A stretch of DNA of 19,193 nucleotides from Leucogyrophana mollusca (lineage: Eukaryota; Basidiomycota; Agaricomycetes; Boletales): positions 1 through 19,193 of the forward strand of contig MU266719.1 in assembly GCA_021014945.1 (NCBI GenBank). The letters are read 5' to 3'. This document shows positions 1-19,193 of this stretch, piece by piece; positions within the stretch are counted from its first letter, which is position 1; each line of letters starts with the position of its first letter. Below the pieces are notes generated by a model. The model was given only the letters and a program-made list of their open reading frames with translations. It was not told where the DNA came from and ran no database searches. The translations under genes were made by a program, and so were the position numbers.

Positions 1-745
1 ATAAGATCAATCGGACAGCTGTTGAGAAGCATGGTGCTCCCAGACCAGAAAGACTGGGCAAATAAGGTTCCCCTGGCTGAGTTTGTGATAAACTCGAGTA
101 TCAGCGCGTCAATGGGGTTTGCCCCGTTTGAACTGAACTACAGATACCTACCCACATTCAACATGGGTATGCACCCCCAGGAGAAGAATGTTGTTCACGG
201 TGTTCGGCACTTTGTGCGTCAAGCACAAAACAACCTGGCAATGGCACATGACACCATCATTGAGAGCAGGGTCAATCAGACCCACTACGCTAATCAGCGT
301 AGGGGGACAGAGTACGATCTCCAAGTAGGAGATCTAGTGTACTTGTCCACGAAGAACTAATCCCTACCCTTGGGTAGGGTGTTCAAGCTGTTGCCCAAAT
401 ACATAGGGCCCTACAAGGTCCTAAGTAGCAATGAGGATAGCTCGAACTACACGCTCAAGCTCCCCGAAATACTTGTCAATAGACGAGTCCACCCCACGTT
501 TCACATAGGCGTACTGCGCAAGCATGAACCGAACAACAATGGGTTGTTCCCCCATCATGACGTCCAAGTCTATTACAACTTCAGAGACGATGACAAGACT
601 GAATGGCTTGTTGACAAGATCAATGCCCACCGGTGGGTGGGTGGCAAAGTGGAGTTCCAGGTTCGATGGAACTTGGGCAACTCTACGTGGGAGCCTTACA
701 ATGAGTGTAAGGACTTAGAGGCTCTAGACAATTATCTAGAGCTTG
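1..745 (+). pseudogene. Ty3/gypsy Pol fragment: integrase C-terminus, GPY/F module and chromodomain (element A)
   Basis: This is the carboxy-terminal part of a Ty3/gypsy polyprotein, which joins element cDNA to host chromatin. The frame is open from base 1, so the gene begins left of the window. The first residues (IRSIGQLLRS, then FAPFELNY) match the end of the integrase catalytic core, just after the expected third catalytic acid, which would lie outside the window. A GPY/F motif (KYIGPYKV) starts near base 391. A chromodomain follows at about 595-741, with the aromatic and acidic pattern EWLVDKI...FQVRW...TWEPY. One in-frame TAA at 358-360 splits the frame (STKN, stop, SLPLGR); both sides are in the same frame, so this is a point change, not a frameshift. 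The natural 3' end was displaced by a solo LTR inserted after base 745; without the LTR the frame would reach its own stop at 1575-1577. The family call is firm; the stop makes it a pseudogene. Confidence 0.93.
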
Positions 746-1498
746 TGTTAAATCCGGTTCCTCCGGTGCTTTCCGGGGAACTCCGGACTAGGGAGTAAGC
801 GTAGATATGTAGATAGGAGGGAATGAACTGATTCCGGAGTCGGAGTGGAACATTGGCTTCAGCTTATGTGCTGCACCTTTGTCTGAGCTCAGTTCCATAT
901 TTCGGAAGTAGGACGGGAGGGGTCGGAGGATTACAGAGAAAAAAGGAAAACTGAGGAAGTCTTAAGAATAGACTTAGAGAAGGTAATCGGAGAGGGGACT
1001 AGAGGCGGAACACAGAGGAGGTGATTAGAATGATATTCAAACTGAAGTACAAGGTTACATCGGAGCAGTATTTATAGTACGGAGTCGGGCTGTGCTACGG
1101 AGTGTGTGTGGGTACAGTAACTGGAAACTGGTGCAAGAAACAATAAGTAAAGTTAAAGGGGAATGGACTCAGAGAACGGAGTGGGTCCGGAAAACGGAGG
1201 GGGCTATGTACATAGGATTAGCATGACAGACAGAGGATAAATAATAGAGTTAGTATGGAGACCAGTAAAAGGCAATGCATAATAAAACAAAATTATAACT
1301 GACAACATACTGAAAATCCGATGAGGTAGTGTTCGGCCCAAGGGACCGGCGGAGAGTCCGGAGGAGTGGAGATGGAAGGACGAGTCTAGAAATCGTTAAG
1401 TCCAACAATTGTTAGACGGAGAGGGCGGAGTGATGCGGGATTGTTCGGAAAGGACTCGGAATGGTATGTACGGGCACGTGGCTGCACGGGATATGACA
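746..1498 (-). mobile_element. Solo LTR of a Ty3/gypsy-type element, 753 bp, TSD GCTTG
   Basis: On the minus strand this unit starts TGTCATATCCCG (at 1498) and ends TTTAACA (at 746), the usual TG...CA form. It is flanked by identical 5-bp duplications, GCTTG at 741-745 and 1499-1503, which fixes both ends. A minus-strand TATA box (TATAAA) lies at 1071-1076. The sequence is a close but diverged relative of the plus-strand LTR at 10172-12225, aligning along nearly the whole 753 bp. There is no internal retroelement sequence, so it is a solo LTR formed by LTR-LTR recombination. Its insertion replaced the last codons of the upstream Pol frame: the apparent ORF to 798 is a chance read into the LTR. 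CGGA occurs about twenty times (see findings). Confidence 0.92.
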
Positions 1499-1503
1499 GC
1501 TTG

Positions 1504-1577
1504 CCAGAGTGGGCAACTGGCGACAGTTGCCCAAGGCATCCACACACCCTAAGGAGCGCGCACTTGGTAAAGGTTGA
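1504..1577 (+). pseudogene. Displaced last codons of element A pol, with stop TGA at 1575-1577
   Basis: If the solo LTR and one TSD copy are removed, the chromodomain frame continues without interruption for about 24 codons here and stops at TGA 1575-1577. The residues after the chromodomain helix (ARVGNWRQLP) fit the usual tail of agaricomycete Ty3 Pol proteins better than the LTR-derived read-through does. The segment also contains a perfect hairpin with 10-bp arms (1510-1519 and 1524-1533), typical of the internal sequence of this element. Confidence 0.8.
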
Positions 1578-1783
1578 AGTCCAGTTTAGGACTGGACACG
1601 CGTGTGGGGCCTTGGTCTGAGTCCCTGACGCCGGGATCCAAATTAGGATCCCGAGATTAACCCGAAATGAATGATTGACTCATCGAGTCAATTTAGACTT
1701 TATGCGAGCGCAGAGCTTGAATGTATTTTGGCAAAGCAAGAGGGGCCCTCTCACTCTTACCCTACACCCTCATCGTCTAGACC
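1578..1783. other. Spacer between pol and the 3' ORF of element A, rich in perfect hairpins
   Basis: No gene is visible. The spacer has three perfect inverted repeats: 1579-1585/1591-1597 (7-bp arms), 1632-1639/1646-1653 (8-bp) and 1674-1681/1685-1692 (8-bp). Their presence in non-coding DNA shows that the palindrome pattern of this element is not a by-product of codon choice. Confidence 0.75.
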
Positions 1784-2680
1784 ATGAGCAACAAGCAATC
1801 CAAGCAGCCCTCGGGCAGCTGCCAGAACGCTTGCCGTGCGTCGCCCCTAGGGGAGTCACACGACAAGCCCATGGACCATGAGTCCACAGAACCGCCCTCC
1901 GCACCCTTGACAATGGCAACGTTGAAGAGGTCGCGGCATCTGAGCGACAACAATAGTCGCTCATCAAAACGCCCACCCCACGGGTGGGTATTCAAACCGT
2001 TCCTGCAGATGGTAGCTCACGCTACCGGCTGTCCGCAGTGCATGGCGTACATTGAGCACCCCAGTGAGGTCGATAGTACTTCGTGCAGATTTGCAGCTGC
2101 CATTGAGGCACGCAACAGCTACTATGCTGATTGCGCAAATTGTGACATGCTGCCCGGATGCGATGTTGCCCTCTTGGAGGACAACATGCGATGTTTTCGT
2201 GGCAGGATGGAGAAGGCCATCGTCACTCATGACAAATATTTACACGAGTTGCGAGATCAGGATTCTGAAAGTGCAACTCTCAAGGAAGAGTTGGCCATTG
2301 CACAGGCGCAACTGGCCTCTGTGAGCATCCCGCTGGTTGCTCATGGGGGGCGGGGGAGTGGCGGCTCCTCGAAACCGACGGCGAGGGGCAAAGCGCCAAG
2401 CTTCCCCCCCTCGACGTCAAAACCACCCTTGCTCAAGAAGGGTGAGACCTCTGATCCGCCCTTATTGGGCCAGGCGACGTTCACGTCATATGCAAAGCCT
2501 CTGACCTCTGATCCGCCCTTATTGGGCCAGGCGACGTTCACGTCATATGCAAAGCCTCTGACAATGTCCGCGTTGTCAAACAAGCCCCCAGCAATGTCTT
2601 CATTGCCCACTACTGCAAGCAAGCCCACTGCGGTCCCGACCTCTGAAAAGGGGAAGGGACCCGCAGCCCTGATCCCGTAA
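1784..2680 (+). pseudogene. N-terminal part of the element A 3' ORF, unknown function, cysteine-rich with coiled-coil-like segment
   Basis: A 298-codon open frame starts with ATG at 1784, about 200 bp after the end of pol and on the same strand. I do not recognise a named domain. Residues 1-70 are polar and low complexity. Residues 83-126 contain six cysteines (C83, C86, C101, C117, C120, C126), including two CxxC pairs, which could bind zinc. Residues about 140-185 are rich in charged and leucine/alanine residues and could form a coiled coil. The rest is rich in Ser, Pro, Lys and Thr and holds an exact duplication of 19 residues (TSDPPLLGQATFTSYAKPL twice). The frame stops at TAA 2678-2680, but protein-like sequence continues in the other forward frames, so the real ORF was longer. 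Its place between integrase and the 3' LTR is where env-bearing retroelements keep env, but no signal peptide is visible here. Confidence 0.65.
2446..2559 (+). repeat. Perfect tandem duplication, 2 x 57 bp, inside the 3' ORF
   Basis: Bases 2446-2502 and 2503-2559 are identical. The 57-bp unit is a multiple of three, so it duplicates 19 residues in frame. Identity in an otherwise decayed ORF suggests a recent duplication, or one made during the last reverse transcription. Confidence 0.95.
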
Positions 2681-3464
2681 AGGGGAAAGGGAAGGACATC
2701 TGGAGGGACTTGTCCCCACCAGAGAAGCTGTCCAAGCAGGACGGTTGAACCAGGAGGTCAACCCGGCACTCTTTGGATATGTCACCAATGAATCCAACTC
2801 CGAGGAGGAGTGCCGACATGAGGTGTGCGATACGAGTATCGCAGGATGAGACGACCCAAGTGATCTACGAAGACAACGGGGCGAGCAGCTCCGTTCCCAA
2901 CCCGCCATGCAAGACTGTGGCAAGAAAAAACAAGGGTAAGGCAGTCGAGACTGCCCCCCAAGCCGCTGAAGTGCAGGAGGACGCCCCCAAAGTCCTGCCT
3001 GACAAGTCCATATTCTATGGACGAGGTGTGCGACCCCCAGGGTGGCTAGAGGGGGAGCGGGGGAACCAGTTCTTCCACTTTGAAGGTGAAGACGACGGGA
3101 CCTTAGTGGTCCTGATTGGCAGTATGGAATACTACTTCTCCGGCGCTGCTAGACTGCGCGTGGAGACCACCATGGCCAACGGGGCCCCACCTTCCCTTGA
3201 CGGCGCCCGTCAAGACGCCATCCCGCTATTTAACATTATATGTGGAATGGCGCGGATTCTTTGCACATGCGCGTGATCCACGCTCGCGTGACATAGAGGT
3301 GATCTTCAAGATCAAACGCTATGTTGCGCATGGATCCAGGCCGTGGTACTGGAGGAGTGGAGGACTCCCACTTGGTATGCCAAGTGGAGAGAAGACCACC
3401 CTCCTGCGGCACCCTTGGGTGCCTCCAATTGTTCTAATGTGCCTGCCCGAGGCATTCACCCTAA
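2681..3464 (+). pseudogene. Middle part of the element A 3' ORF, broken by several frameshifts
   Basis: Protein-like sequence passes between the three forward frames: about 2676-2747 (KGKDIWRDLSPPEKL), about 2748-2845 (NPALFGYVTNESNSEEE), 2845-3276 (long open stretch with IFYGRGVRPPGWLEGE and MEYYFSGAARLR), about 3255-3350 (GFFAHARDPRSRDIEVIF), then about 3343-3480 (EEWRTPTWYAKWRED). Each part stays coding-like for tens of codons before the next takes over, as expected from accumulated small indels in a once continuous gene. I recognise no domain. Hairpins with 7-8-bp arms are spread through it, e.g. 2826-2843, 2940-2955, 3006-3022, 3197-3213, 3368-3387 and 3408-3423. The exact shift points are estimates. 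Confidence 0.55.
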
Positions 3465-4421
3465 GCCGGTGAAGAAAGAGGGCGCATTGCCTCAACCAGG
3501 CTCACTTCCACTCCGCAGGAGTGGAAGGACTGGATTGAATTCTACTCGAAGGAATTCAATGGTGTTCCACTCGAGGGTGGAACTGTTAGCCTGCGTGACG
3601 TGAGGGGTCACATCCTGGTGTCGCGCCTCAACCCCACCTTCGAGAAGGGGACCAGCGAACAAAGGTGTACCATATTCTGGTACCACCTCTGCCTGTTGGC
3701 CCTGGTACCAGGGTTGTACCACGAATATCTGGCCATGTTCGCATGGCCCATTGCCCCAATGTTCAAACCTGTGCGGTTCAAAGGACACGTCAACAACCTG
3801 ACGGAGGATGATGTTGCCCAGCACCTAGCGCAGTGCGGGGTATCCCTCCACCAGGTTGATGACATTCAACCCTACATGCAACACTGGCTGTCGTGCTGTC
3901 TGGACACCTGCCACAGGTTCCTGACGGATGACGAACGCGCCATCCTCAGCGAACGCCTGGTGATCGTGGTGTCCCCGGATGCGTACACCACCCTGTCACT
4001 TGAGGGACGTGCCTAGCTCGAGACAATCGCACGTGAGAAAGGGACCGAGCTCCCTGACGCTGCTCCCGCCTCGAGGATATTCTCGTCGTTCGACGATCAG
4101 CAGATGAGCCTGCTGGCTGATCCCCCAACCGTGCACAATTTAGTCACGGCTAGTGCGACATCTGGACTTGTCGCCGGGGAGTTTGCCGCCAACAATCCAT
4201 TGGCCGATGTGGACCATGAAATGGCCACAGTCGTCCCCAACAACAAGCGGCAGCTCATCATCGGCCGTCCCTGTGATTCTCCCCCTCCTGGCAAGGGGGC
4301 AGTCTCTCTCGACTACAGAGAGGGAGATGTACCCGTCAACATGAGTGTTGACACCGCCAACATCCCTGGTGACCCAACAGGTCACCCCAATGTCCCCGCT
4401 AACGAGGCCCCGCCCTCGTGA
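3465..4421 (+). pseudogene. C-terminal part of the element A 3' ORF with a hydrophobic stretch, one in-frame TAG
   Basis: One frame is open from 3465 to TAG 4014-4016 and then, in the same frame, from 4017 to TGA at 4419-4421, so only a single point stop separates two blocks of about 183 and 134 codons. The TAG most simply comes from CAG (Gln). The first block begins with TPQEWKDWIEFY-like sequence. It has a strongly hydrophobic, aromatic stretch at about 3669-3764 (FWYHLCLLALVPGLY then MFAWPIAPMF), then polar helices with several cysteines (SCCLDTCH). The second block is acidic and ends in a Pro-rich tail. The hydrophobic stretch could be a buried core or a membrane segment; nothing else supports an envelope protein. 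I do not recognise the family. Confidence 0.6.
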
Positions 4422-4622
4422 GCGCTCTATCATCCACGCTACCCTAGGGTAGCGTCTATTTCTCTTTTTCTTTCTTCCTTCTCTCATTTCCCTCTACTTA
4501 AAATATGCAAGTACCCTAGTGGTACTTGCTCTCTGTACTACTGCTGCCTAGTACGTTACTGTACCACCACCCGTGCGTCTCGATGCGTGCTGTTGAAACT
4601 ATCAGAGTCCCAAGGGACTCCA
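4422..4622. other. Non-coding 3' spacer of element A with three strong palindromes
   Basis: No gene is seen between the 3' ORF stop and the polypurine tract. The spacer contains a 20-bp perfect palindrome (4436-4455), a hairpin with 9-bp arms (4507-4515/4521-4529) and a hairpin with 7-bp arms and a 2-nt loop (4605-4611/4614-4620) that ends three bases before the polypurine tract. Confidence 0.7.
4436..4455. repeat. Perfect 20-bp palindrome
   Basis: The half-site ACGCTACCCT (4436-4445) is followed directly by its exact reverse complement (4446-4455). It lies 15 bp downstream of the 3' ORF stop codon. It could form a stem in element RNA; its role is unknown. Confidence 0.95.
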
Positions 4623-4632
4623 GTGGGGGGAG
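4623..4632 (+). promoter_or_regulatory. Polypurine tract for plus-strand priming of element A
   Basis: GTGGGGGGAG directly precedes the TG of the LTR at 4633. This is the canonical placement of the RNase H-resistant primer that starts plus-strand cDNA synthesis in LTR retrotransposons. It supports the reading that 1-4779 is one plus-oriented element. Confidence 0.8.
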
Positions 4633-4779
4633 TGTAAGCATATATTCACTCCTATCTACTATAAATACCTACAAAAACCTTATTTACATCATCTTTGTAC
4701 TTTTCACTTACTTACCATCAAATACACCAAGTGGTCGTGTTAGTGGTCCCGAGTGATAAAGTATAACGAAACCGTTACA
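4633..4779 (+). repeat. 3' LTR of element A (short, about 147 bp)
   Basis: The segment starts TGTAAGC right after the polypurine tract and ends CGTTACA, giving a TGTAA/TTACA terminal inverted repeat of 5 bp. A TATA box (TATAAA) lies at 4660-4665. The right end is inferred from the TTACA terminus and because the Plavaka-like reading frame is open from 4781 on. 147 bp is very short for a gypsy LTR, so the end could be wrong. The 5-bp target duplication would then be CGTAT (4780-4784); its partner must lie left of the window, next to the 5' LTR. Confidence 0.6.
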
Positions 4780-7719
4780 CGTATGGGACTTTCTCTTTGG
4801 TGATTTCTACCACCATAGCATCACATCCATTATTCGGGAGAAGATATCCAATCATAATTGTCAGCGCTTCCACTTTGAACCATATGGCTTATACTGCCAA
4901 TGTCACAATAGAACAGGGGTTGTCCAGGATCCTATTTGAGTGCATGGGGAGCTATACACTTTGCTGGCATTCATCGATGCCTATAAAGAGGTTCAGGACC
5001 TTCCTGGTGAGCCAGGATGCGACATGCCGCGAATTGTGGTCGCCCTTCAGTTTTGGTTGGATAGTACCCATCTGACATCTTTTGGGAACGTGAAGCTCTG
5101 GCCTCTCTACCTCTGGTTCGGCAACGAGTCGAAATATCAACAATGTAAGCCGTCATGCCATCTGTGTAGTCATGTGGCATATTTCCAACCAGTGAATACT
5201 ATTCTTTTACAGCCTGCAAGGTTGCTTAGACTGCGAACGTGTCCACAGCTTCCCGATTCTTTCAATGGTTCCCACTGCAGTAAGTTTGTCGTGCGAAGTC
5301 TTTGATTGTCTGATTGACGTATTTTCTCACCCCTCGCATAGAACACATTTTCTAAGGCTCTGACACCCCTTGGAATCAACATATTCCCAATGTTTATTGT
5401 GGATCTCCTGCACAAATTCGAGATTGGTGTTTGGAAGACTTTTTTCATTCACCTCCTTTGGATATTGGAGGCTTCTAAAGAAGGGTTACTTCATGAGCTT
5501 GATCAATGGTAATGTATGCACTTTTCCTCGAACAAGATTATTTCTGACGTTTCTCAGGTATTGGCTGGTTCCAACCTATGGGAATAGCACCATCAGACGG
5601 TTCTCTCGCAACAGCTCGGAACTGAAGAATATGGCCACAAGAGATTTCGAAGACCTTTTGCAGGTGTGTGCACTTTCTTTCATCAACTGGTATATACTCA
5701 CTACAATTTCTACTGTGAAGTGCGCCATCCCTGTATTTGAGGGCCTGCTGCCTGGGACACACAACGAGCATGTCCTACAGATATTGTTCATGCTTGCGCA
5801 TTGGAATGCCTTGGCAAAGCTCCGCATGCACACTGACTCAACACTGGCCCTTCTCAATCATGCTACCGTTTCGCTTGGCGCCACTTTGCGCCACTTCCAG
5901 GCAATGGTGTGTCCTGCCTTCAAGAGGCGAGAATTGAAATGGGAAGCAGAGGCTCAAAAGCGTAACACCAGTAGTCAAAACAATTCACGCCCCACCAAAC
6001 CCAGACCCCCCACCAACACCGGAACCAATCCCGGGACCTCCACCAACGGCAGATCTTCCACCAATGCCCTCAATAATCTTTCTAGGAGCAACGGCAAGCA
6101 GCCTGAGGTAGGCTCCAGTGCATCAACACGACGGCCGAAGGTCTTGAACCTACAGACGTACAAGTTACATGCCCTCGGCGACTACACCGATTGCATTCAA
6201 CGGTACGGCACAACAGATTCATATTCCACTGAACCTGTATGTCGCCTCCACAATTCCTGCAGCCTTTCTTAAACTAACTTACATCTGCTGCCAGGGCGAG
6301 CTTGAACACCGCCGACCAAAACACTGGTATACACGTACCAGCCAGAAGCAATACGTGAAGCAAATAACGAAGATTGAATGCCATCAAGCACATATTTGCC
6401 ACATCCGTGAGCAGCTGGGCAGCCAGGTCACAAGGGACGCTCATGACGAGTCTGATTACATGGTGCATTCGCCCGATGTCCATCACGTTATTGGCTCATC
6501 GCAGAACATTCCACGCAATATTCCCTTGTTTATGCAAAAGTATGTCAACAACCCCACCATCAAGGTAAATTATGGTGGTTTATATGAATGAACCGGTCCA
6601 GTACTAAATTAACGCTTTACACCACAGGCTTTCTTACCACAACTGAAGAAGCACCTACTTCACCGTATTTGTGCTGCCCTACGATCGGAAGCTACTGAGA
6701 CAGGTATGCTTCAGAGCTACAGTACACAGGCTGGGATCACAAGTGAAGATGACTGGTGTTTCATATTCCTCAAGAATGAAGCCATCTATGAACACAAACT
6801 GATGCGTATCAATTACACAACCTATGACGTCCGATGTGCGCAAGATGTTATAAGCCCGTCCACGACGCACAATAATATCATGATGCTTGCTACCGCTGCT
6901 CCTGACGCCCCAGAATGTTCTCTCAGTCAGCACCCTTTCTGTTATGCACACATAGTCGGGATATTTCACACCAACGTCATCTTCACTGGGCCGGGGACCC
7001 CAGACTATAACCCACGACACTTAGAGTTCTTATGGGTCTGATGGTATGAGATTGAAGGGGAGTTGGCTGGTTAGGATGCCTTCAGGCTGGACCGTGTCCA
7101 ATTCCTCCCAATGGCTGATGAGGGTGCCTTCGGGTTTTTGGACCCAAAAGATGTCTTATGTGGCTGTCATATTATTCCCGCATTTGCCCAGGGAAAACTG
7201 CATGCAGATGGTATCGGCCTATCCCGGTGCATCGATGACTTTCAAGACTCAAAATATTACTACGTTAATCGGTGTCATTTACTGTTACCCCCATGTCACA
7301 AACCTCATGAGACCCCATGCCCTTTACAATCAGTTTTGTCGACCGTGACATGGTGATGTGGTACCATTTTGGGCAAGGTGTGGGTCATGTTCATGCTACC
7401 CCTCATTGCTCAGAAAATCCGAGTGCCAGCCACCATGTTATCTCTACCAACAAAGAACATGGAATTCACAAGAGTGCCAACGAATCAGCAGGGTGCGATG
7501 AAGAACATGAAATAAAAAACGGCTAGCGGTTCAGCAGACTGTCAGCAAAACGACTTTGATGAAATGGGATCTTTCTTGGACCTTGATGACTCTTGGGTAG
7601 ACGCCGATGGTCAAGAGTCTGACTTCGAGGATGAAGATGGCGACGACTCGGACGAGCTTTTACTCGCCATGGACGATATGTATGGATGGGATTATTTACA
7701 GGCCGAGACTTATGATTGA
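4780..7719 (+). pseudogene. Plavaka-like (KDZ/CACTA-related) transposase gene, 5' truncated and degenerate, with introns
   Basis: Exons by family match and GT-AG sites: about 4780-5191, 5249-5279, 5342-5508, 5558-5663, 5721-6236, 6295-6564, 6628-7271, 7334 to about 7513 and on to TGA 7717-7719. Introns are 49-63 nt. Exon 1 has the conserved block VKLWPLYLWFGNESKY and CHLCSHVAYFQ. Exon 3 has DLLHKFEIGVWK, exon 4 STIRRFSRN and ATRDFEDLLQ, exon 5 IPVFEGLLP and YKLHALGDY, exon 6 GELEHRRPKHWYTR, exon 7 INYTTYDVR, FCYAHIVGIFH, LEFLWV and AFGFLDPKDVL, and exon 8 FVDRDMVMWYHFG, ending in an acidic tail. These are hallmarks of the agaricomycete Plavaka proteins. Defects: the N-terminus is missing because Ty3 element A was inserted in exon 1; in-frame stops TGA 4937-4939, TGA 7039-7041 and TAG 7072-7074; a frameshift at the A6 run 7514-7519; and a missing central segment between exons 2 and 3. 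It encodes the transposase of a DNA transposon; no terminal repeats were identified. Confidence 0.85.
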
Positions 7720-8175
7720 TACTGGAACACTGAAGTACTGAACACGTTAGAAAATGCCAGTGCAAAGCATCAACCTCTGGCCAACCATCCCTTTGATTTT
7801 CCTTCCTTTCCTCCAGTGACCCCAGCCCCTTGGGCCCACCCTATGCTCCCCCTACCCTGACCACCCTCATGAACTACGTCGGGGGGGTCCCAAACTCCTC
7901 ATCGCAAGGGCTCTCCGTCATATGCCCCACCATCAAACACTCATTGCAAGGGCTTTCCATCATACGCCCACATCGTCAAGACTCAAGGCTTGCCAATGAC
8001 GTGCTCCTTGTGCCCGGGCACCACTGCAACAAATGTCAAGCCTGCCGTCTCCCGTGGGAACACGAGCAATAGCACAATTCTGCACCAAGTGGCGTCAAGG
8101 CCAAACGTTTGACTGTCAGGTGCCACCCACCCACCTCTGACGATGGGAGCTCAACAACAAATTGAATTGTAAGTA
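7720..8175. other. Stretch without a recognisable gene; contains a 30-bp imperfect direct repeat
   Basis: It follows the Plavaka-like gene. Short open frames are Pro- and Ser-rich and I recognise none. Bases 7898-7927 and 7940-7969 are an imperfect 30-bp direct repeat (CTCATYGCAAGGGCTYTCC core) with a 42-bp period, so the copies encode similar peptides in any frame. It could be the transposon's 3' flank or part of an unknown gene. Confidence 0.4.
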
Positions 8176-8541
8176 ATGTGTGCGGTCCATGTCGTAGATT
8201 GGTATGTCCCCCAAACATGGTGCTGGCCGTGGCCTGTACTCCATACAGAGCACGTTTACTGGACCATGCTAGGGTATTCAATAGGCGGCCGTCGGACAAA
8301 CGTGAACAATTCCCATTCCACTGGTAATGTTGTCAAGGCCCTCATGGACTCGCTCATGCCAAAGGCAAAGGTCAGACATGACGGAACCTGGTCGGAAATC
8401 GAGTTTTTGGACCCTGTACCCAGTGACATGATCCCCTTCAATATCAGTGACATTGTGCCCACCGACTGCCATCTCACTGAGGCCATCAACATTTCTATCA
8501 ACCAAGCAGCATTGTTGCCCCAGAGCAAAACTTGGCGATGA
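8176..8541 (+). CDS. Unrecognised open frame, possible exon
   Basis: A 121-codon frame ends with TGA at 8539-8541. From about 8270 it reads like ordinary protein (VVKALMDSLMPKAKVRHDG, then WSEIEFLDPVPSDMIPF), with mixed composition and no low complexity. No domain, signal peptide or membrane segment is evident. The start is uncertain and the N-terminal third looks less coding-like. A plausible 5' splice site (GTAAGT at about 8551) follows the stop, so this may be one exon of a broken gene that continues toward 8860. Function unknown. Confidence 0.3.
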   Translation: MCAVHVVDWYVPQTWCWPWPVLHTEHVYWTMLGYSIGGRRTNVNNSHSTGNVVKALMDSLMPKAKVRHDGTWSEIEFLDPVPSDMIPFNISDIVPTDCHLTEAINISINQAALLPQSKTWR

Positions 8542-8860
8542 GTGTTTCTTGTAAGTCTATGCCTCTATCATCAAATGTCCCCCGCTCATGTAAATATTTA
8601 GTCGTTCGACCTGTAGTTGCTGGTGCCACTGTTTCCCAGGAAAGCGGTGTCTCCATTACTCGCACCCTAGTCCCGCATTGCCTCTATCCACAAGTCGCTC
8701 TACTTGAATCATGTCTCATTTAATCACAGTTCTTCTAGTAAGTGAAAGGCGAGAAGCAGACCATGGAGTTCTGCCAGAGACATCCTCTCTCCAAACTCTC
8801 GAATTAAGAACTTGTTTCGAAGCAGATAGCACCACCCAGCTGCAACCTTTAGGTACTTTC
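8542..8860. other. Stretch with splice-like signals but no recognisable gene
   Basis: Short open frames exist on the plus strand, with GTAAGT-type sites near 8551 and 8739. None is recognisable. The stretch ends at CTTTC (8856-8860), the left target duplication of the next LTR. Confidence 0.35.
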
Positions 8861-10200: not shown

Positions 10201-11508
10201 GTTGATGAGCCTCGTGCCCATCTAAGCTCGGATACGACCGATATCCTAGGTTTTTCGACTTCGCGAAGCGCCACCGCATCCGGCGACCGATCCGCGAACG
10301 TGACTCGACTTCGGCGACCGGCAAGAAGCCTTCGCGAACGCCTGGAGCGCTTCAAGTTCCTCTGACTCACAAGCACGCGCCATTTCCCTACGCCCTACGC
10401 CCTCAACCCTTCCCCTAGGCCCTGGGCTTCTCTACCCTCGCATCACAAGCGTCTCCGAAGCTCTGGCTAGCGGGCGAGTGCCCATGTCCATCAAATGGGG
10501 CGAGTCAGTGTCGACCCACATCAAGTGCGATCGCCCTTGACCCAGGGCATCGCTTTGCGCCTTTCCGACGCTTCCATGACGTTGACGCTCATACTCTATC
10601 AATATTAACTCCTCGGCCACTATCGCAGAGTTACAGAAGTCGTGATTTAGCAGGTACGTGCTTGCCAAGACGCATGGACTGTGTATTGAGGATCGAGTAG
10701 CTGCCAGACCAACTGTAGTACAAGTAGACACTCTTGTATTGTAGACCTCAGTGAAGCACACCCCGTTTCTTCAGCTCACATTTCGAAGTCCACATCTCTA
10801 AGCAGCAGCGCGACCAAGGGTCTTTGACTTATTGGTAGCGTATATCACTTATAGTGTTTTCCCCTCTGGCGACTCATTAGCGTACTACCCCTTTCGGTGT
10901 TCCCCCTTTGGCGTTCCCCCTTTGGCGTTCCTACTTTCTAGCGTTCTCTCCCTTTCGGCGACTCTTCAGCGACCAGCGTATCCCCTCGGCGATCCAGTTT
11001 TAGTCTCTCGACCTTAGCAACAGCGTATAGCTTGGGCGACCGGTCTCAGACCCGATCGCAATCCAGTCTACCATTGTCCTAGCGGTCTCAACTAACGACT
11101 TCGACGACCTTGTTTGCTTTCCGATTGCATTTGCATTCAGGCGGTCTCACTTGGTTATACTTGCTCGCTGTGTATCTTGACCAGCGATCGAGTTGTATCC
11201 CATACTAACCAAACCCCCTTTCCCCTCACTGACCTCGGCTGTCACCCACAGTCAAGACTCAGAGATCCTATGGAGATCCTCGCACCCCTCAGACTAGTTC
11301 CGCAGGTAGCCTATCTACAAGAGACTCGACCCTCCCTTCCTACTCCCCCATTTGCATTCCAGCAGCCCCACAGCTCAGTAATCAGACTCGCTCGCACTCA
11401 CTCGCACGGTCGCAGCGTCGCACAGTCTCGCACTAGCAGACCGACTGTTTGTTTGTTTGTCCTTTAGGTTTTGGGTTTTGCCTCTAGGCCCGCCCGCAAG
11501 CGCATCAC
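10201..11508. mobile_element. Unclassified 1.3-kb insertion inside an LTR
   Basis: It is absent from the sister LTR at 746-1498, where the same flanking motifs (GCCACG and ATACCATT) are only about 10 bp apart. It is more GC- and CpG-rich than its surroundings, especially 10201-10400. Its open frames (longest about 110 codons, minus strand, 10432-10761) are not recognisable. The ends show a weak inverted similarity (TGATGaGCcT at the left; TGATGcGCtT read inward from the right). No clear target duplication or retroelement coding sequence is visible. It could be a non-autonomous element or a longer LTR variant. Confidence 0.5.
10888..10930 (+). repeat. Short tandem repeat, 14-15-bp unit, three copies
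   Basis: The unit CCCCTTTGGCGTTC occurs exactly at 10903-10916 and 10917-10930. A variant copy precedes it at 10888-10902, and looser variants (CTTTCTAGCGTTC, CTTTCGGCGAC) follow to about 10962. It is inside the unclassified insertion. Confidence 0.8.
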
Positions 11509-12449
11509 TGTATACCATTTCCGGTCTCCTCCCGCACGTTTCCGCCTCACTCTGATCCCTCCGTCTAACAATCGTTGGACTTAGCAATTTCTAGATTCCT
11601 CGTTCCGCCTCTGGTCCTCCGGACTCTCCGCCGGTCCCTCGGACCGAACACCACCTCGTTTGGACCTTCTGTATGTTGTCAGTTATAGTTTCCATTTTAT
11701 TATGCATTGCCTTTGTTAGTCTCCATATTAACTTTATTATTTATCCTCCGTCTGTCATACTAATCCTGTGTACATCGCCCCCTCCGTTTTCCGGACCCAC
11801 TCCGTTCTCCGGAACTATTCCCCTTTGATCTTACTTATTGTTTCTTGCACCAGTTTCCGGTTACTGTACTCCGTAGCACAGCCCGACTCCGTACTATAAA
11901 TATTGCTCCGATGTATCTATGTACTTCAGTTCAAATATCAACTCAATCACCTCCTTTGCATTCCGCCTCTGATCTCCTCTCCGAATATCCTCTCTAAGTC
12001 TTTCCTTAAGACTTCCTCAGTTCTCCCTCATCTTTTGTATCACTCCGACTCCTTCCGATTCATCTCCGAAATACGGAACTGAACTCGAGCAAAGGCGCAG
12101 CACATAAGCTGAAGCCGACGTTCCATTCCGACTCTGGATTCAGTTCGTCCACTCCTATCCATATACCTACGCTTACTCCTTAGTCCGGAGTTCCCCGGAA
12201 AGCACCGGAGGAACCGGATTTGACAGTTATCAGACTTATTTTGTGCCAATAAATGAACATCCTTATGCTACCCTATTACTTTCATAGATATATGTTTCTC
12301 AGACCAGCAGAATGATTATGAATCCATTGTCAACTGAACATCAAACTGCTGGTTAGATGTCATCAGATATCAGACTTATTTTGTGCTGATAAGTTGATAT
12401 CCTTATGTTATCTTATTACTGGTGTAGATAAGCCTATATATGATTTTTC

Positions 12450-12728
12450 TTGCTTGTGTCTGCTTGTCAAATCTGTCCGGAAATAGCAGCACCTCCCCGA
12501 TTTCATGATGTGATTGACGGGGAAGCCAGCGGGTCACCGCAGGCGAGTAGTCCCCCAGACTCTCTGCCAGAGCTGGAGGACGCAGAGGGCCCACCCATGG
12601 GCGAGCCCTCCGATGTTTCTAGTAACTGGTGGTTCTACCACCAGACCGGCAATGTGCACTATAATTCTATATGGATTGATGGAAGTTTCCATTTGGGCTC
12701 GAAACATCCAGATTGGAACTTTCCCTAA
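12450..12728 (+). CDS. Unrecognised open frame, possible terminal exon
   Basis: A frame open to TAA at 12726-12728. The C-terminal half looks like real protein (NWWFYHQTGNVHYNSIW, then GSFHLGSKHPDWNFP), preceded by an acidic, Pro/Ser-rich segment. A 3' splice site (AATAG, then CAG) at about 12487 could mark an exon start, making the first twelve codons of the frame intronic. No domain is recognised and no partner exon is identified upstream, where the tandem repeat lies. Confidence 0.3.
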   Translation: MLVSACQICPEIAAPPRFHDVIDGEASGSPQASSPPDSLPELEDAEGPPMGEPSDVSSNWWFYHQTGNVHYNSIWIDGSFHLGSKHPDWNFP

Positions 12729-13034
12729 CTGCCAAATATAGGCAATACTTCACATCTCCGGCTCACCTGGCTGCAACATTCAGCCGCTTTTTTCAAGCTC
12801 AGCTCAAACTGTATTCCACAAGTGACATCATATGGTTTGCAAATGTTTGGCTGTATGTTTTGGATGATTCTGGGTGCTTTTTCAAGTGGCCAAAAGCGGA
12901 AATAACCACCACAACACCCAAAACATACCCATTATGGCTACACACATTATATCTGGCTTTCCCACACTCTTGCACACCCTCCCCTGCTTCCTCCTGCATC
13001 CTCTAGCACATATGTTAGATACCTATGTAGTAGG
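12729..13034. other. Stretch without a recognisable gene
   Basis: A 97-codon open frame (12713-13006) has no recognisable features. On the minus strand this is the region just downstream of the copia Pol relic. TGTTAGATACC at 13013 could be the outer end of a copia LTR (read TCTAACA on the minus strand), but no matching LTR start or target duplication was found. Confidence 0.35.
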
Positions 13035-13787
13035 TTAGTATTCTAGTATATAAAACAATGAAAATATAAATTTACTCCGCTTTTTTTCACCCAGAATGGG
13101 CGGGCGAGTGGTATGGTAAAGAGGTCGGTGATGTTCTCTTCTATAGAAACGCATGCAAGTCGAATGGTACTGGCGGCAACATGCTCGCGTAGAAAATGAT
13201 ATCGAAAGTTCGACTGGTCCATACAATTCGCTGAGTAAGAGTTGAATGTAACGGGTTTCACGGAGCGTGCTAGTCATCACAATATACTCTGCCTCGGTGG
13301 ATGACAGTGCGATAATAGATTGTGATCGTGCACCCCACACAACCGGTCCATCATTCAGAGTGATGACGAAACCCAAAATGGAGTGACGATGGGCCTGAGT
13401 TGCCCAGTCTGAGTCCACGTAGGCTGCAAGTCCTAGGTCTCCTCCACTGAGGATGAGCTTATAGTCCGACGTGCTTGTAAGGTAAGATATGACATGTTTT
13501 GTTGCCTCCCAATGGGGGCGACCTGGATTCTGCATGAATTGCGAGAGCGTTGTGACAGAAAAAGCAGTATCGGGTTGTGTGCTGGTAGCCGCATACATTA
13601 CCGACCCTACTCCCTCCTGGTGAGGGACGGTTTGCATGTCGGCGACTTGCGCTGGAGTGGCTGGGCACTGCTCGGTGCTGAGGAGCGTGCCCGATTCCAT
13701 TGGCGTGGAGACCTTCTTTGTGTTCGTGAGGCGAAAATGTTTGGCAATGGTACTGATATAGGGCGATAGTTCGCGCACTATGGTCAC
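13035..13787 (-). pseudogene. Ty1/copia Pol relic: RT connection and RNase H domain
   Basis: RNase H removes RNA from RNA-DNA hybrids during reverse transcription. The minus-strand frame reads ISTIAKHFRLTNTKKVSTPM, SVMYAATSTQPDTAF, PGRPHWEATKHVISYL, AAYVDSDWATQAHRHSI and IIALSSTEAEYI, the usual order for copia elements. The first RNase H aspartate (YVDSDW) and the glutamate of STEAEY are present. The family's next block (CDNQSAI...HARTKHID) is missing: SELYGPVE runs almost directly into RYHFLREHVA, which lies in another frame (13043-13261). This points to a small internal deletion that also shifts the frame at about 13195-13210. After the shift, ENITDLFTIPLARP is the normal C-terminus. It continues from the RT fragment at 13770-14283 through a second frameshift near 13770. 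Confidence 0.9.
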
Positions 13788-14283
13788 GTTTGACCTTAAG
13801 ACCGAGGAGCCATGTCAGTTCTCCCAGATCACTGATCTTGTACCATTTCGATAGTTCACTCTTGAACATTTTGATGTGAGTGATGTGATTTGACGCGACG
13901 GCCATGTCATCCACCGATACGGTGACCACTGAGTGTTCAGGTTTGACTCGTTTGAAGAATACTGACCGATCAATCTTCAAACGGTTGAAACCCATCTTGT
14001 TGAATGTCCCTGCCAACTCCTCTGACCACTCAAATCCAGCCTGTTTCATCCCATACAGCTCTCTCAGCAGCTTCAGCACCTTTCCCTCCTGGTCAGGCTT
14101 TAAGTATCCTGGTGGTGGATGCATGTATATGTCTTCTTTGATCTTGGCATAGAGGTAAGCACTCTTGATATCGACTTGATGGATCTCCCAGTCGTATTCG
14201 GCAGCCTTCGTGAGTACAGTGCGAATTGAAGACATGTGCACAGTGGGTGCCGACGTATTGAAATAATCGACACCATGTTGCTG
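13770..14283 (-). pseudogene. Ty1/copia Pol relic: reverse transcriptase core
   Basis: The minus-strand frame contains WEIHQVDIKSAYLYAKI with the first catalytic aspartate, then PPPGYLKP, LRELYGMKQAGFEW, and VSVDDMAVASN as the active-site motif, then SDLGELTWLLGLKVKRD. SVDD in place of YVDD is, as I recall, usual in agaricomycete copia elements and need not be a mutation. It is in the same frame as the fragment at 14284-14622, separated by one in-frame TGA (14284-14286, minus). At about 13770-13785 an indel moves the reading to the frame of the RNase H fragment. Confidence 0.92.
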
Positions 14284-14622
14284 TCAGCGACCATTGGCTA
14301 CTAGTTGTGCGTGAAGCTTTAGTTTCTCGCCATTTGGGCCACGCTTTGTCGCGAGTATGAAGTGACAAGGTATGATGTTGGCGCCAGCTGGTGCATCGAC
14401 AACTTCCCAAGTGTTTAACTTTTCGAGTTGAGCGAGTTCGTAATCGATTGCCTCTTGCCATTCAGCTGCGTCTGGCCCGTTCAAAGCTTCTGTCAGAGTT
14501 GGCTCGCGTTCGGCACTCGCAAAAGCAAACAATGGGAGTAAGTCGTAATCTTCACTGATTCCGTCCTCAGCGAAATCGGTGGGATCTTCGATGATGGTGG
14601 CAGCCTGCTCGCCTCGGTTCAA
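14284..14622 (-). pseudogene. Ty1/copia Pol relic: N-terminal reverse transcriptase segment
   Basis: The frame shows the usual entry to copia RT: EPTLTEALNGPDAAEWQEAI, then LEKLNTWEVVDAPAG and LKLHAQLVANGR. It is preceded by the acidic linker that separates integrase and RT in this superfamily. It ends at TGA 14284-14286, after which QQHGVDYFNTSAP continues in the same frame, so the break is a point change. The upstream TGA at 14647-14649 is also in the same frame. Confidence 0.9.
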
Positions 14623-14649
14623 TCTGGCATAATAACCAGGCGGAGGTCA

Positions 14650-15085
14650 TGCACAACGTGGCTGAATTGGTGGATTGGGGCTCACAGGTGCCTCAGAGTC
14701 TTCGGCAGTGTTTTCGGTGGTTGAGGGAGTATGCTGGGTGGCATTCGGGTCGTTTTGGTCATCACTGACCTTCAGCTCCCCCTCAAGCTGAATGTCACCT
14801 GGAATAGACACCTCCTCTGGTCAAAAGCTGACATCTCTTTCCACCGAAACTCTGTTCTTCGCTGGCCAATAGACGCGGAACCCCTTGCTCTCGTCATCGA
14901 AGCCAATGAATACACCTTCTGCAGTGTGAGGATTAAGCTTTCACCCATCAAGGGTTCGAACGTAGACAGTGGATTCGAACTCGTGGACTTGCAAGACATC
15001 TGGCGTCACATCGAAAACCATCTCGAATGGTGTCTTGTTCGGTAGGGCGCGGGTAGGGGGGCGATTCTTCGCTACTGCTTCAATG
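14650..15085 (-). pseudogene. Ty1/copia Pol relic: end of integrase and integrase-RT linker
   Basis: Reading on the minus strand from about 15085, AVAKNRPPTRALPNKTPFEM and VHEFESTVYVRTLDG are the end of the copia integrase core. KLNPHTAEGVFIGFDDES, FRVYWPAKNRVSVERDVSF and the linker IPGDIQLEGELKV follow in the same frame. Two TGA codons interrupt it, at 14941-14943 and 14821-14823 (minus strand). The catalytic DDE residues and all of gag and protease are missing because the relic ends at about 15085, where element B begins on the opposite strand. Confidence 0.85.
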
Positions 15086-15516
15086 GGGTAGTAGTTGCCC
15101 TGTTCAAGCGCTTCATTACTGAAGCGACAGCCCAGAAGGCACACGACAAGTATGCCGCAACGCGCTACTTGCGCGCCAAAGGCGCATTGGCTTTCTACAA
15201 CGAGATCCAGCGGCGAGCTGCTAGGATGATCCAAAGGCCTGATGATTATTCCATCAGGCGCAAGTTCCTGACCGGACTCCCGCACGAACTCGTGCAGGAT
15301 GTCCTCAAGTCGAGAGGAATCTCAGCTGAACACTTGTCAATCGACGAGATCCTAATTGCCGTAAGGCAGATGGAATCAGCCCACCGCTTTGTGGAACACC
15401 ACAGGCGGGGAATGGACCATAGTGCCCACCAGAGTGGTGGGAGTTCACAATGTCGAGATGACAAGCAACCCAATAGGTCGCGCGAGCAAGGACGCCCTTA
15501 CCAAGTGGTAAGGTGA
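15080..15516 (+). pseudogene. Ty3/gypsy Gag, central region, 5' truncated (element B)
   Basis: Gag forms the cytoplasmic particle in which element RNA is packed and copied. The frame reads VVALFKRFITEATAQKAHDK, ALAFYNEIQRRAARMIQRPD and YSIRRKFLTGLPHELVQDVL, the pattern of retrotransposon Gag in basidiomycete Ty3 elements. The N-terminus and 5' LTR are absent: the frame becomes recognisable only at about 15080, where it meets the copia relic. The frame ends at TGA 15514-15516, inside a perfect hairpin region (15496-15503/15506-15513); the family would continue, so one or more indels lie between 15510 and 15545. Confidence 0.85.
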
Positions 15517-15544
15517 ACCGACGCCATGATAAGGCGCCCAACTC

Positions 15545-16264
15545 TTGAGAAAGGGGAAATTACCCCAACAGGAACAAATACCAATCTGCCCCAGGGGCGG
15601 TAATGGGACTGGAGGATACCCTCCAAGGAAGAATAACTTTGGGGGCGACAAAGCCGCCCCCAAGAAATCACACCCACTGGGTGTGAAGTGCTATATATGT
15701 GGCGGGCAACATTATGCAAATGAGCATAAAGAGAAGGCGCAGCAACTGTTTGCTGTGCATATCATAGAGGAAGGTGAGCCTTCTCCTGAGGAAGACACAC
15801 CGACTGGCGCCGCCGCCAATGAGGCTGAGCAAGCCCAGCCTCCTGCAGAAAGTGAAGAGCCTTCCAATAACAAAGTTTCAGAGGAAGAGGACCCAGAGGG
15901 ATCCTCAGAGAACTCGGATGAGTACGTCCTGGAGCCATATGAATCATACAGGGAAGAGGATGACAATAGCAATATCATCTATATACGGGCCATGAACACA
16001 AGGTTCAATGTCCCTGACCTCGATGAGCCCATGAGCGTGGTGGAGGACAACGATGTCCCCCGCTCGAGGATGCAGACAACTCCTCTCACAGGGGGGGTAC
16101 TGCAGGACAGGAAGCCCTTCCAGAAGGAAGGAGGCCAAGGTGGCAATACCATCCCGAGGATGGTATTGTGCACAACAGTGACAAATGTCGCATATGCAAG
16201 GGATACCGCGCCCACTTGCACCAAGCAAGGGACGCAGAGGACGCGACCTATGAGGTCGCGGTAA
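15545..16264 (+). pseudogene. Ty3/gypsy Gag C-terminal region with zinc-knuckle-like motif (element B)
   Basis: The frame encodes a basic, Gly/Pro/Gln-rich segment, then CYICGGQHYANEH, which resembles the nucleocapsid CCHC knuckle but is short by one residue and has His in place of the last Cys. A long acidic Glu/Ser/Pro-rich linker follows. It ends at TAA 16262-16264, but coding-like sequence passes to another frame at about 16160-16200. Two hairpins with 9-bp arms flank the knuckle codons (15639-15663 and 15668-15686). Whether the altered knuckle still bound RNA cannot be judged. Confidence 0.75.
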
Positions 16265-17184
16265 CCGAGAGAGTAGATCATGAACACATGATCTATATGA
16301 ATGCCTGGGACACTTATGAAGCGTCCTCAATTGGACCCGAGTCAGAAGAGTATAGAGCACTGCTCACTCAACTGTCAAGGGCCAATGACAGGCTGCAGAC
16401 CGCCTCACGAATGGCGGATGAACTGGCCAGCGCGGCAGTCAAGACTGTGCGCAAGATGCGAGAAGGCCACCGATGGGTGGCCCACAGACTGCATCTGCAC
16501 TACCAGGGAGAGGGCAGTGAGGCCGAGTCTGAAGAAGACTCGACCCCATCGCCAGGACCAGCATGGGTCCTCGCCTCTGACGAGGCGGATACATCCACCA
16601 ATGAGGTGGAGCAATTATTGACGGAGCCTGTGGGATGCATGCGCTGCGTGAGCCATAGCAGTGGCGACTCCTCTCATGGAGAGGAGAGCAAACAGCTTCA
16701 TCCCATGCATGAAGCAAAAGCACCTGAAGAGCGAGAATATTGCTACACCATCAGGAAGCCCACGGCTACAGGACAGCGTCCCAAGAGGGACACTCGTGCA
16801 CAGCGGTGCATGGCAAGGTATATTACCCTCAACGGCTTTCGAGCCTACACACTGTTCGACTCTGGGAGCACGACCAACTCGGTCAGCCCCCAGGTGACGG
16901 AGGTAGTGAAGCTACCAGTTTTCCAACTGGATAACCCAGTGACATTGCAACTCGGCTGCATTGGCAGCCGCTCCAAAATATTCTATAGTTGCAATGTAAC
17001 CGCTGTGTTCGGTCCACTATCAGTGGACCACTACTTCGATGTCACGAACATCGATAGATACGACTGCATCGTAGGGAATCCCTGGATGCGTGAACACAGA
17101 GTCCTATTGGACTTCGCCAACGACGCCATTGTTATCAATGGTGTACCTATCCCCGCTCTTACGGAGGGGGAGGAACAGGAGTGA
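16168..17184 (+). pseudogene. Ty3/gypsy linker and aspartyl protease (element B)
   Basis: A 338-codon frame. The first about 200 residues are a helical, charged linker starting CRICKGYRAHLHQARDAED. The retropepsin domain begins at about residue 218, with the catalytic triplet DSGS at nt 16858 (residue 231) in YTLFDSGSTTNSVSP, then VTLQLGCIGSRSKI, VDHYFDVTNIDRYDCIVGNPW and a C-terminal INGVPIPAL. The active-site Asp-Ser-Gly is intact. Retropepsin cuts Gag-Pol into mature parts. The frame ends at TGA 17182-17184; RT lies downstream in the same frame (17263 on), so read-through or loss of a sense codon is possible. Confidence 0.88.
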
Positions 17185-17262
17185 CTAGCTCACTCGAAGT
17201 CCTCCGGTATCTCTACGAAAGTAGAGCCAGCAAGGACTTCTCGCCCCCACGCCACAAAAATA

Positions 17263-18756
17263 GTGGAAGTGGAGGACAAGGAGGCACCCAAGAGTGCCTC
17301 GCGTGGAGGGAGCGCGGTGCAGGCGCCTCACTCACAAGGTAATGTTAGTCACCCGAGGGGGACCTCAGAGGCCCCTTCAGAAAAATCTGAAAAAGCCAAA
17401 AAGAAGTTGAAGATCAAATCTCCGAAGAGAAGGGAAAGCAGGAACACCCAACGAGCTTTCCTGGCTAGGATACGGGAGAACTCCCTAACAGAGGAGGACA
17501 TCCCGAGGCTTTGAGAACAATGGTTCTCGAAGTGTGTGGATATGATGGGAGGAGTACCTCCCAGAATGCCGCCCTTACGGGCAGTAAATCATCATATACC
17601 CCTTGTCAATCCTGACAAGCAACATACATACCACCTCCCAAGGTGTCCGGATGCCCTTAAGCTGCAGCTTATGGACAAGATCTGTACGTACGGAGATGCA
17701 AAGTGGTGGGTACGTGCCAGCGTACCCCAAGCTGCACCAATGTTGTGCATTCCCAAGAAAAATGGGAAGTTTAGGACAGTCGTGGACTGTTGCAAACGGA
17801 ACGATAACACCATAAAGGATGTTACCCCATTCCCGGATCAAGATCAGATCCGGATGGATGTAGCTCGAGCGAAAATTCGCTCGAAGATAGACATGGCAAA
17901 CACGTACGAACAAGTACGCGTTGACCCCGCGGACGTGGTGTTGATGGCCTTTGCGACCGTCTACGGCATGTTCCTGAGCAATGTAATGCAGCAAGGGGAC
18001 TGCAACGCCCCCGCTACATTCCAGCGGCTCATGACCACGATATTTCGTGATTATATTGGGGTGTTTATGCACATCTATCTAGATGACATGTTTGTGTTCA
18101 GCGATACAATTGAAGAACACGAAGAACACCTGGGGATGGTGTTCACAAAGCTGCGCGAGGTGCAGCTATACCTCAAGAAGGAAAAATGCGACTTGTATTC
18201 CAAGTGCATGGACTGTCTCGGCCACATAGTGGACAACAAGGGGCTTCACACCGACAGTGATAAAATGGCACGAATTCGTGCCTGGAGAGCAATGCCCTCG
18301 TACCATGAGGTACAGCGCTTCCTGGGACTGGTGGAATATCTGGCACAATTCATGCCAGACGTATCTGCGTATACCAGTTCATTGTCTGGCATGACCAAGA
18401 ATGGTCACGTGTTCTACTGGAGACCGCTCCATGATAAGTGCCTTGAGTATATCAAGGCACTGGCATGCAAATCGCCGATACTTTGGCCAATCAACCCAAA
18501 ATTGCTTGAAGCAAATTGGTTGATCTGTGATGCCTTGGCATTGGGGCTAGGAGCATACTACGGGTGGGGCCCAGATTGGAGGACATGTAGGCCAGCTGGC
18601 TTCATGTCCAAGAAACTCAGTGATGCCCAGCATCACTACGCCGTATATGAACACGAGGTCCTCGCGATACTTGAGGCACTCCTCAAGTGGGAGGATAAGC
18701 TCCTCGGGTACAAGTTCAGCATAGTGACTGACCATGAGTCAATAGAGTTCTTTTGA
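17263..18756 (+). pseudogene. Ty3/gypsy reverse transcriptase and start of RNase H (element B)
   Basis: The frame runs 17263-17511, is cut by TGA 17512-17514, and continues in the same frame from 17515 to TGA 18754-18756. RT blocks in order: NHHIPLVNPDKQHTYH, QAAPMLCIPKKNGKFRTVVDC, SKIDMANTYEQVRV (first catalytic Asp), QQGDCNAPATFQRLM, and YLDD at 18076-18087 (the active-site pair). Thumb and connection follow (CLGHIVDNKGLHTD, RFLGLVEYLAQFMP), then RNase H with LICDALALGLGAYYG, AGFMSKKLSDAQHHYAVYE, EVLAILEALLKWEDKL and VTDHESIEFF. The catalytic residues are intact; the two stops inactivate it. The TGA at 17512 probably derives from CGA (Arg), because the surrounding hairpin would pair fully with C (see findings). 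Confidence 0.93.
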
Positions 18757-19193
18757 ACTCAAAGGAAATTATCGAGTCGACAGACTCGATGGATGGAATA
18801 CATTGCCCGATCCAACGCAGACATTGTCTACGTGAAGGGCGAAGACAACAAAGTAGTGGACTGTTTGTCCCGCTACTTTGAAAGCAACACCTGGGAAGAT
18901 GTCCCCCAGGAAGGGGACATGGCATTTGCAGATGTGCGATTGGATCCCCACGGTGACGACCTTCCCCAGGGAAGGATAATAGAATTACGATCCCAGAGGA
19001 TTGTGAGAGAATCTACTCATAAGAGTAGGCGGCTGAAGGAAACACCTGAACCCAGGAGGGTTCAGGCTGAGGAACTCACACACGCCACCCCTCAACGAGG
19101 GGAAACAGTGTGTGGCCCTTCGAAAGACCCAGGGGGTGGGAAACCAACCCCAGGGACCCTTGAGGGACCAAGCATTGCACTCCAAGGAGACGG
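18757..19193 (+). pseudogene. Ty3/gypsy RNase H C-terminus and RNase H-integrase linker (element B), continues past the window
   Basis: Directly after TGA 18754-18756 the same frame continues open to the end of the window: TQRKLSSRQTRWMEYIAR, then IVYVKGEDNKVVDCLSRY, the usual C-terminus of Ty3 RNase H with its last conserved Asp (NKVVDCLSR). From about 18880 on is a charged, Pro-rich linker that precedes integrase in this lineage. Integrase itself is not reached. Perfect hairpins crowd this stretch: 18771-18790, 18899-18920, 18960-18975 and 19045-19066. Confidence 0.9.

Follow-up and report, generated by a model that had tools for sequence, protein, structure and literature searches.

We analysed a window of 19,193 nt, the whole of the stretch taken from Leucogyrophana mollusca contig MU266719.1 (GCA_021014945.1) on the forward strand, which carries two partial copies of one Ty3 family of long terminal repeat (LTR) retrotransposons. 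Copy A (1-745 plus 1499-4779) is the 3′ part and copy B (15069-19193) the 5′ part of the element, and stretches matching B and A are present in order at another locus, L024. Both copies are packed with short perfect hairpins far above chance and, among the elements and stretches examined in this genome, dense hairpins are limited to one Ty3 clade. The following features were annotated.

1-745, forward strand: copy A, 3′ part, integrase end with chromo-like tail; 8 perfect hairpins
746-1498, no strand assigned: foreign solo LTR of 753 bp, TGTTA..TGACA, 5-bp target duplication GCTTG; 0 hairpins
1499-4632, forward strand: copy A continued, 3′ open reading frame (ORF) region up to the purine-rich tract GGGGGGAG ahead of the 3′ LTR; 25 perfect hairpins
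1784-2680, forward strand: 3′ ORF, 298 aa; no Pfam match
4633-4779, forward strand: 147-bp repeat with ends TGTAA..TTACA, probably the 3′ LTR of A; 0 hairpins in a length too short for density to be judged
15069-19193, forward strand: copy B, the second copy, gag region, protease, reverse transcriptase (RT) and RNase H; 34 perfect hairpins from 15080 on
16168-17184, forward strand: protease ORF; 9 perfect hairpins, 0.8 in synonymous shuffles
17536-18756, forward strand: RT-RNase H ORF; 12 perfect hairpins, 0.87 in synonymous shuffles

Judged from its predicted RT, RNase H and protease domains together with an LTR and a polypurine tract, the hairpin-packed element can be classed as a Ty3/gypsy LTR retrotransposon. 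Ty3-type domains scored above cut-off for RVT_1 (94.1 bits), RT_RNaseH (59.2 bits) and RT_RNaseH_2 (53.2 bits), an aspartyl protease lies upstream of RT (RVP_2, 22.8 bits, cut-off 20.3), and Pfam profiles gave an SH3_Tf2-1 match above cut-off in 1-745; the chromodomain PF00385 after the integrase reached 20.2 bits, below its cut-off of 25.1. The LTR has TG..CA ends and follows the polypurine tract, and in L024 and L026 the 5′ side shows this LTR end as well. Ty3/gypsy elements of Agaricomycetes (Meripilus, Trametes, Pleurotus) share with the present element the RT, RNase H and protease matches and a short TG..CA LTR, and the RT of the window is 53-66% identical to 29 aligned homologues, compared as proteins only.

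The element also has an extra 3′ ORF, for which only 4 relatives were found (65-76% identical, three of the four named Leucogyrophana mollusca). No Pfam domain was found in it or in its longest relative. Its differences show a third-position excess, by which it looks coding. It also holds an exact tandem duplication of 57 bp (2446-2559).

Hairpin counts and controls

Perfect inverted repeats with arms of at least 7 bp and loops of 0-10 nt were scanned by script, and 67 were found in 7,993 bp of the two copies, comprising 8 in 1-745, 25 in 1499-4632 and 34 in 15080-19193. An earlier note on this DNA had counted at least 52, with arms of 7-10 bp, in about 8.0 kb, where about 5 would be due to chance. 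Dinucleotide-preserving shuffles (20 each) gave 0.35, 2.70 and 2.25 for the three stretches, 5.3 together, so the excess claimed there was upheld by the kind of scan it had suggested, with about 12-fold enrichment over dinucleotide shuffles and 13-fold over synonymous ones. Arms were 7 bp long in 37 hairpins, 8 in 18, 9 in 7, 10 in 4 and 11 in one; loops spanned 0-9 nt, with 59 of the 67 having loops of 2-7 nt. The excess starts at arms of 5 and rises with length, reaching 30 against about 1 for arms of at least 8, and the count is at background for loops beyond 9 nt. On average the element has one perfect stem-loop per about 120 bp, and about 40% of Ty3 bases lie within a hairpin of arm at least 5, whereas shuffles give 10-12% and the mid-window stretch 10%. 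The hairpins listed below are all 12 with arms of at least 9 bp and three shorter ones, out of the 67; none has a strand assigned.

362-379: arm 8, loop 2; four other copies have the loop in reverse-complement form
1510-1533: arm 10, loop 4 (GCGA)
3505-3527: arm 10, loop 3
3534-3560: arm 9, loop 9
4436-4455: palindrome, arm 10, loop 0
4507-4529: arm 9, loop 5; identical stem in copies with wholly or largely different loops
15639-15663: arm 9, loop 7
15668-15686: arm 9, loop 1
16144-16168: arm 11, loop 3, the longest in the window
16274-16295: arm 9, loop 4
17833-17853: hairpin coding for the conserved PDQDQIR; family C529 has T-A for one G-C pair through two synonymous transversions
17865-17884: arm 9, 2-nt loop, inverted in copy L024
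18437-18461: arm 10, loop 5
18619-18637: arm 8, loop CCA; TGG, the exact inversion, only in L022 among six compared
19045-19066: arm 9, loop 4

In pooled loops of the clade (19.8 kb), the number of perfect stems falls sharply past 7 nt, with 18 having a loop of 7 and 3 a loop of 8. To our knowledge, neither RNA nor DNA loop energies predict a step between these two sizes.

In comparison, the 10,447 bp between the Ty3 pieces (4633-15079) had 5 hairpins with 5.8 expected in shuffles, and 746-1498 had none with 0.3 expected. The background density that had been claimed outside the elements therefore holds for the mid-window stretch, where the copia relic and the Plavaka gene lie; as to the LTR that had also been cited for it, 746-1498 belongs to another element, inserted in A, and is not part of the palindromic element, while the 147-bp LTR is too short. 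A single dispersed repeat or a known RNA family was rejected as the source, since the arms differ, as the earlier note had claimed, and Rfam gave 0 hits at the gathering score.

The enrichment is not set by the encoded protein and is present in all coding regions tested, in line with the coding independence proposed before. Five coding stretches, the last of which contains one stop, had 32 hairpins compared to 2.5 under synonymous-codon shuffling, and conserved RT peptides such as PDQDQIR and ILEALLKW house hairpins. RT columns coded by arms were slightly more variable than those elsewhere (entropy 1.30 and 1.04, p 0.05), and the residues of the window were equally typical in them (0.60 and 0.61). 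With random synonymous codons the RT protein would be expected to yield 0.51 palindromes per kb, and 29 homologues average 0.51. The protein sequence of the RT thus gives no more room for palindromes than that of homologues, and codon choice is what makes them.

Elements carrying the trait

Protein-homologous stretches from members of the clade in the same genome were 10-22.5 times enriched in 15 of 16 cases, on separate contigs with one contig used twice. The smallest enriched stretch, L033, rests on 2 hairpins, and the sixteenth, L034 (366 bp), for which 0.13 would be expected, had none. Outside the clade, six Ty3 copies from five other families together had 4 hairpins where 7.2 were expected, which rules out a general Ty3 habit and shows that naming Ty3 elements at large as the bearers was too wide. 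A copia habit was likewise rejected on one element of this genome, with 5 hairpins against 3.0 expected. Five 10-kb stretches of the largest contigs (50 kb) had 25 against 28.4 expected, ruling out a genome-wide palindrome habit; thus the host DNA sampled, like the Plavaka gene and the copia relic, is free of the excess, any of which the earlier note had named as a place where equal enrichment would tell against its claim. Chance, base composition and codon bias are ruled out by the dinucleotide and synonymous shuffles, and, if an assembly artefact is put beside them, this whole group of explanations has a negligible probability given the 12- and 13-fold excesses and a trait shared by 15 of the 16 stretches of the clade, which lie on separate contigs, and by none of the six other Ty3 copies.

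Support was 100/100 for the branch that split off the palindromic group in an RT tree of 20 rows. Within this branch, beside the three families, the tree also placed four relatives from Meripilus, Trametes and Pleurotus, with branching order not resolved. Since these relatives share the branch, the trait may extend past this host, although they were compared as proteins only. Hairpin density could thus serve as a sequence-only clade marker, with a prediction for relatives in Polyporales and other Agaricomycetes. The viral contigs scanned yielded no relative; a scan of bacterial and archaeal contigs gave one short match, which was not used, and a plasmid search one distant match.

Turnover of stems and altered loops

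Stems turn over between families, and covariation is above controls in closer comparisons. Three families, about 30% apart in DNA, keep the hairpin density with mostly different hairpins. Of the window-family stems that could be tested, family C404 (about 31% divergence) kept 5 of 13 and C529 3 of 8; at slid positions, which served as controls, none was kept in any comparison family. Where both sides of a pair had changed, Watson-Crick pairing was kept in 4 of 10 cases from the window to C404 (slid mean 1.7) and in 7 of 11 from the C404 family to the window (slid 1.2). For example, at one axis near column 1093 of the RT alignment, C404 and the window family both have a stem, in which several pairs have changed on both sides. 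Among non-CpG pairs in stretches of 80-88% identity we counted 23 double changes with 4.0 expected, 20 of the 23 being Watson-Crick, in comparisons that overlap and include a few stretches outside the clade. Mapping hairpins on a copy alignment, as had been suggested, thus brought out compensatory pairs in the closer comparisons and inverted loops; no copied tracts were seen.

The copies of the window family are related to one another as a near-star, and most differences among them come from post-insertion decay, strongest at CpG. Covariation seen within the family at CpG pairs is therefore for the most part decay that struck the two positions independently. Between copies, about 60% of CpG-type positions vary, compared to under 10% of other positions outside arms and loops, and we take this variation as a sign that the copies are methylated and decaying. 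That arms diverge less is largely an artefact of having chosen perfect arms.

Genome-scale ordered RNA structure (GORS) is a property of some RNA viruses. The reading towards which we tentatively lean is that the dense stems reflect selection for the element genome to fold locally and densely when single-stranded, as a Ty3 version of such structure. The genome would fold while single-stranded, as genomic RNA or minus-strand cDNA, and point changes completing a stem, largely synonymous in the RT region studied, would be retained by selection. Stems would be lost and replaced with time, the conserved quantity being density and not position, and the folding would help to package or protect the genome, or to shield it from surveillance of RNA or DNA by the host. 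Both selection as the cause and this role of folding are what we infer; they fit because construction is largely synonymous, density is constant despite turnover, and sense loops are A-rich. Gained arms showed extra synonymous change in all four reference copies (0.61 in the window family, 0.55 outside), and amino-acid change in them was not raised in the window family (0.31, 0.33 outside) or in C535 (0.24, 0.30 outside).

The other reading that carries real weight, which we consider possible and less probable than selection, is hairpin-templated correction, in which the RT of the clade, or some other clade-specific polymerase step, would let the nascent strand fold back where a palindrome is imperfect and copy one arm into the other. 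A few bases would be corrected per cycle, and palindromes would be a mutational by-product filtered only by proteins. That stems are mostly perfect agrees with this, as do coding stretches that all look alike, and strong selection on each stem would be unnecessary. The direction of change does not bear it out: 15 of 39 palindromes had at least two polarised changes, of which 6 were one-armed, with 5.1 expected for independent point changes, and among 7 palindromes with at least three such changes 1 was one-armed, with 1.1 expected. No tract copied into one arm was seen among the polarised changes. Gained arms without excess amino-acid change in the window family and C535 also speak against it.

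Footprints of template switching are present in the loops. Of 11 distinct loops (2-5 nt) that were wholly or nearly wholly changed, 5 were exact reverse complements, comprising four of the six two-base loops, the single three-base loop and none of the four five-base loops. Exact loop inversion is a mark of template switching (PMC8604942; PMC8794818, in the excerpts available). Three of the five inversions are private to single copies (window, L022, L024) and may for that reason be host-DNA events after insertion, which takes away from their value for templated correction by the element; the remaining two separate L031 from L032, at sites to which no gene was assigned. Strand switching in hairpins thus happens, perhaps in host DNA post-insertion. 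The likeness to template-switch mutations at quasi-palindromes extends to perfect stems, covariation and inverted loops, and the difference is that the cases given in the excerpts of those two papers are events in rRNA genes or 39 yeast genes (PMC8794818; PMC8604942), whereas here a whole element clade is affected and copied tracts were not seen.

In a stronger form, the clade RT would continually rewrite its own genome toward Watson-Crick self-complementarity, a self-templating symmetry and a form of molecular drive; we regard this as rather unlikely. No report of such enzyme-driven symmetry for a retroelement was found among the papers listed from the openly accessible literature.

Strand signs and known systems

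Local RNA folding was stronger than expected in each of nine clade stretches (z -1.5 to -3.4; these are stretches, not assembled whole elements), compared to z of -0.8 to +0.1 on the sense strand in seven other stretches. In the window family, 25 all-Watson-Crick stems of at least 8 pairs were found with 0.2-1.5 expected, together with 12 having one G-U pair and 13 having one A-C pair (2.2 expected each). Loops are A-rich on the sense strand (A 35.3%, compared to 27.0%; none of 2,000 simulations was as high). This loop A-richness is the sole strand-specific sign found, and it points to a single-stranded stage; templated correction would need an extra reason for it. The 5′ arms are C-rich (0.35, with G at 0.23), both for the window family and for other copies. 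C-G is the commonest closing pair across the window family and its copies, a tendency that is weaker in most of the remaining families.

Several observations weigh against selection on a folded single-stranded genome. Folding energy was equal on the sense and antisense strands within about two errors in the clade; L043, one of the controls free of hairpins, folds somewhat better on the sense strand (-2.07 ± 0.90 kcal/mol). Single hairpins differed between strands by 0.03 ± 0.06 kcal/mol (n=105). Stems with one odd pair in 12 copies or families had G-U in 93 cases and A-C in 81, a count in which window-family copies are not independent and L021 alone gives 15 and 5; odd pairs shared between copies were 7 G-U and 7 A-C, and a further count gave 8 and 8. 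Selection on RNA should favour G-U over A-C, and the selection reading does not explain this indifference. In the distant family C448 none of 13 window-family stems was kept, and in C535 2 of 21, with covariation against these two families hardly above slid controls (4 against 3.2; 6 against 6.0). Amino-acid change in gained arms was slightly raised in C404 (0.33, 0.29 outside) and raised in C529 (0.43, 0.29 outside, 42 codon comparisons), and C535 loops were not A-rich (0.22, 27 bases). No k-mer or loop motif dominated among 105 loops, and hairpins were spaced no more regularly than at random (simulations as regular, 0.14 to 0.95 in four tests). Finally, some 80-90 stems per element, an extrapolated figure, would need a large effective population, which is doubtful for a fungal transposon.

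Part of this evidence suits templated correction, namely the near-equal treatment of G-U and A-C, the lack of a loop motif or spacing rule, and, for C529, gained arms with raised amino-acid change. The causes may also be mixed. The earlier note had offered selection for dense local stems and template switching by the RT as its two causes, and each stands in part: selection has synonymous construction and A-rich sense loops behind it, with G-U not clearly favoured and strands equal on the other side, and template switching has loop inversions and near indifference to G-U and A-C, with changes that are not one-armed and three of five inversions private.

Strand symmetry of the stems and near-equal G-U and A-C would also be expected if selection acted on double-stranded or cruciform DNA, or if a host factor read DNA hairpins in methylation, recombination or replication, and heavily decayed CpG sites agree with methylated DNA. 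We find this improbable, since a duplex feature should not differ by strand and loops are A-rich in the sense only, and since other Ty3 copies, one copia and sampled host stretches lack the trait. Dispersed packaging signals, in which each stem-loop would be a Gag contact, as has been proposed in several RNA viruses, are likewise improbable and rank just below DNA-level selection. Such signals in RNA viruses, in the portion of the source available (PMC6281560), resemble the present case in many short stem-loops per genome, and here the stem-loops are spread along the sequence with A-rich loops; unlike them, our hairpins have no common loop motif and no spacing rule.

As for the favoured selection on single-stranded folding, the likeness to GORS lies in folding beyond shuffled controls over long coding sequence, not bound to position. 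The stems here differ in being short, perfect, without clear G-U preference, strand-equal and in a retrotransposon, and the strand signature of GORS, tolerated G-U with better folding of the sense strand, was not found.

In yeast, Ty3 genomic RNA probed by selective 2′-hydroxyl acylation analysed by primer extension (SHAPE) has a folded core with short palindromes proposed for dimerisation (PMC11381356). The available part of that report depicts a mosaic of structured and dynamic regions and describes no element-wide perfect hairpins (PMC11381356). No description of such hairpin-packed elements was found among the papers listed from the openly accessible literature, judged by titles and abstract openings. 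For a mobile element of cells, perfect hairpins in twelve-fold excess, limited to one clade and left unexplained by the proteins, amount to a strong structural signature. With it one can test whether stems become dense genome-wide via selection on nucleic acid or via a self-templating polymerase, and the Ty3 families of this genome without the trait provide an internal contrast.

Two further observations concern the remainder of the window. The solo LTR at 746-1498 has a diverged inverted relative at 11512-12225, and other relatives are inserted in the pol of a different Ty3 (L022) and in a further window-family copy (L024). Because similar copies interrupt retroelements at both loci, this LTR type is a recurrent inserter. 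A weak E1-E2 ATPase match at 8176-8541, below cut-off, is possibly a host gene fragment among transposons.

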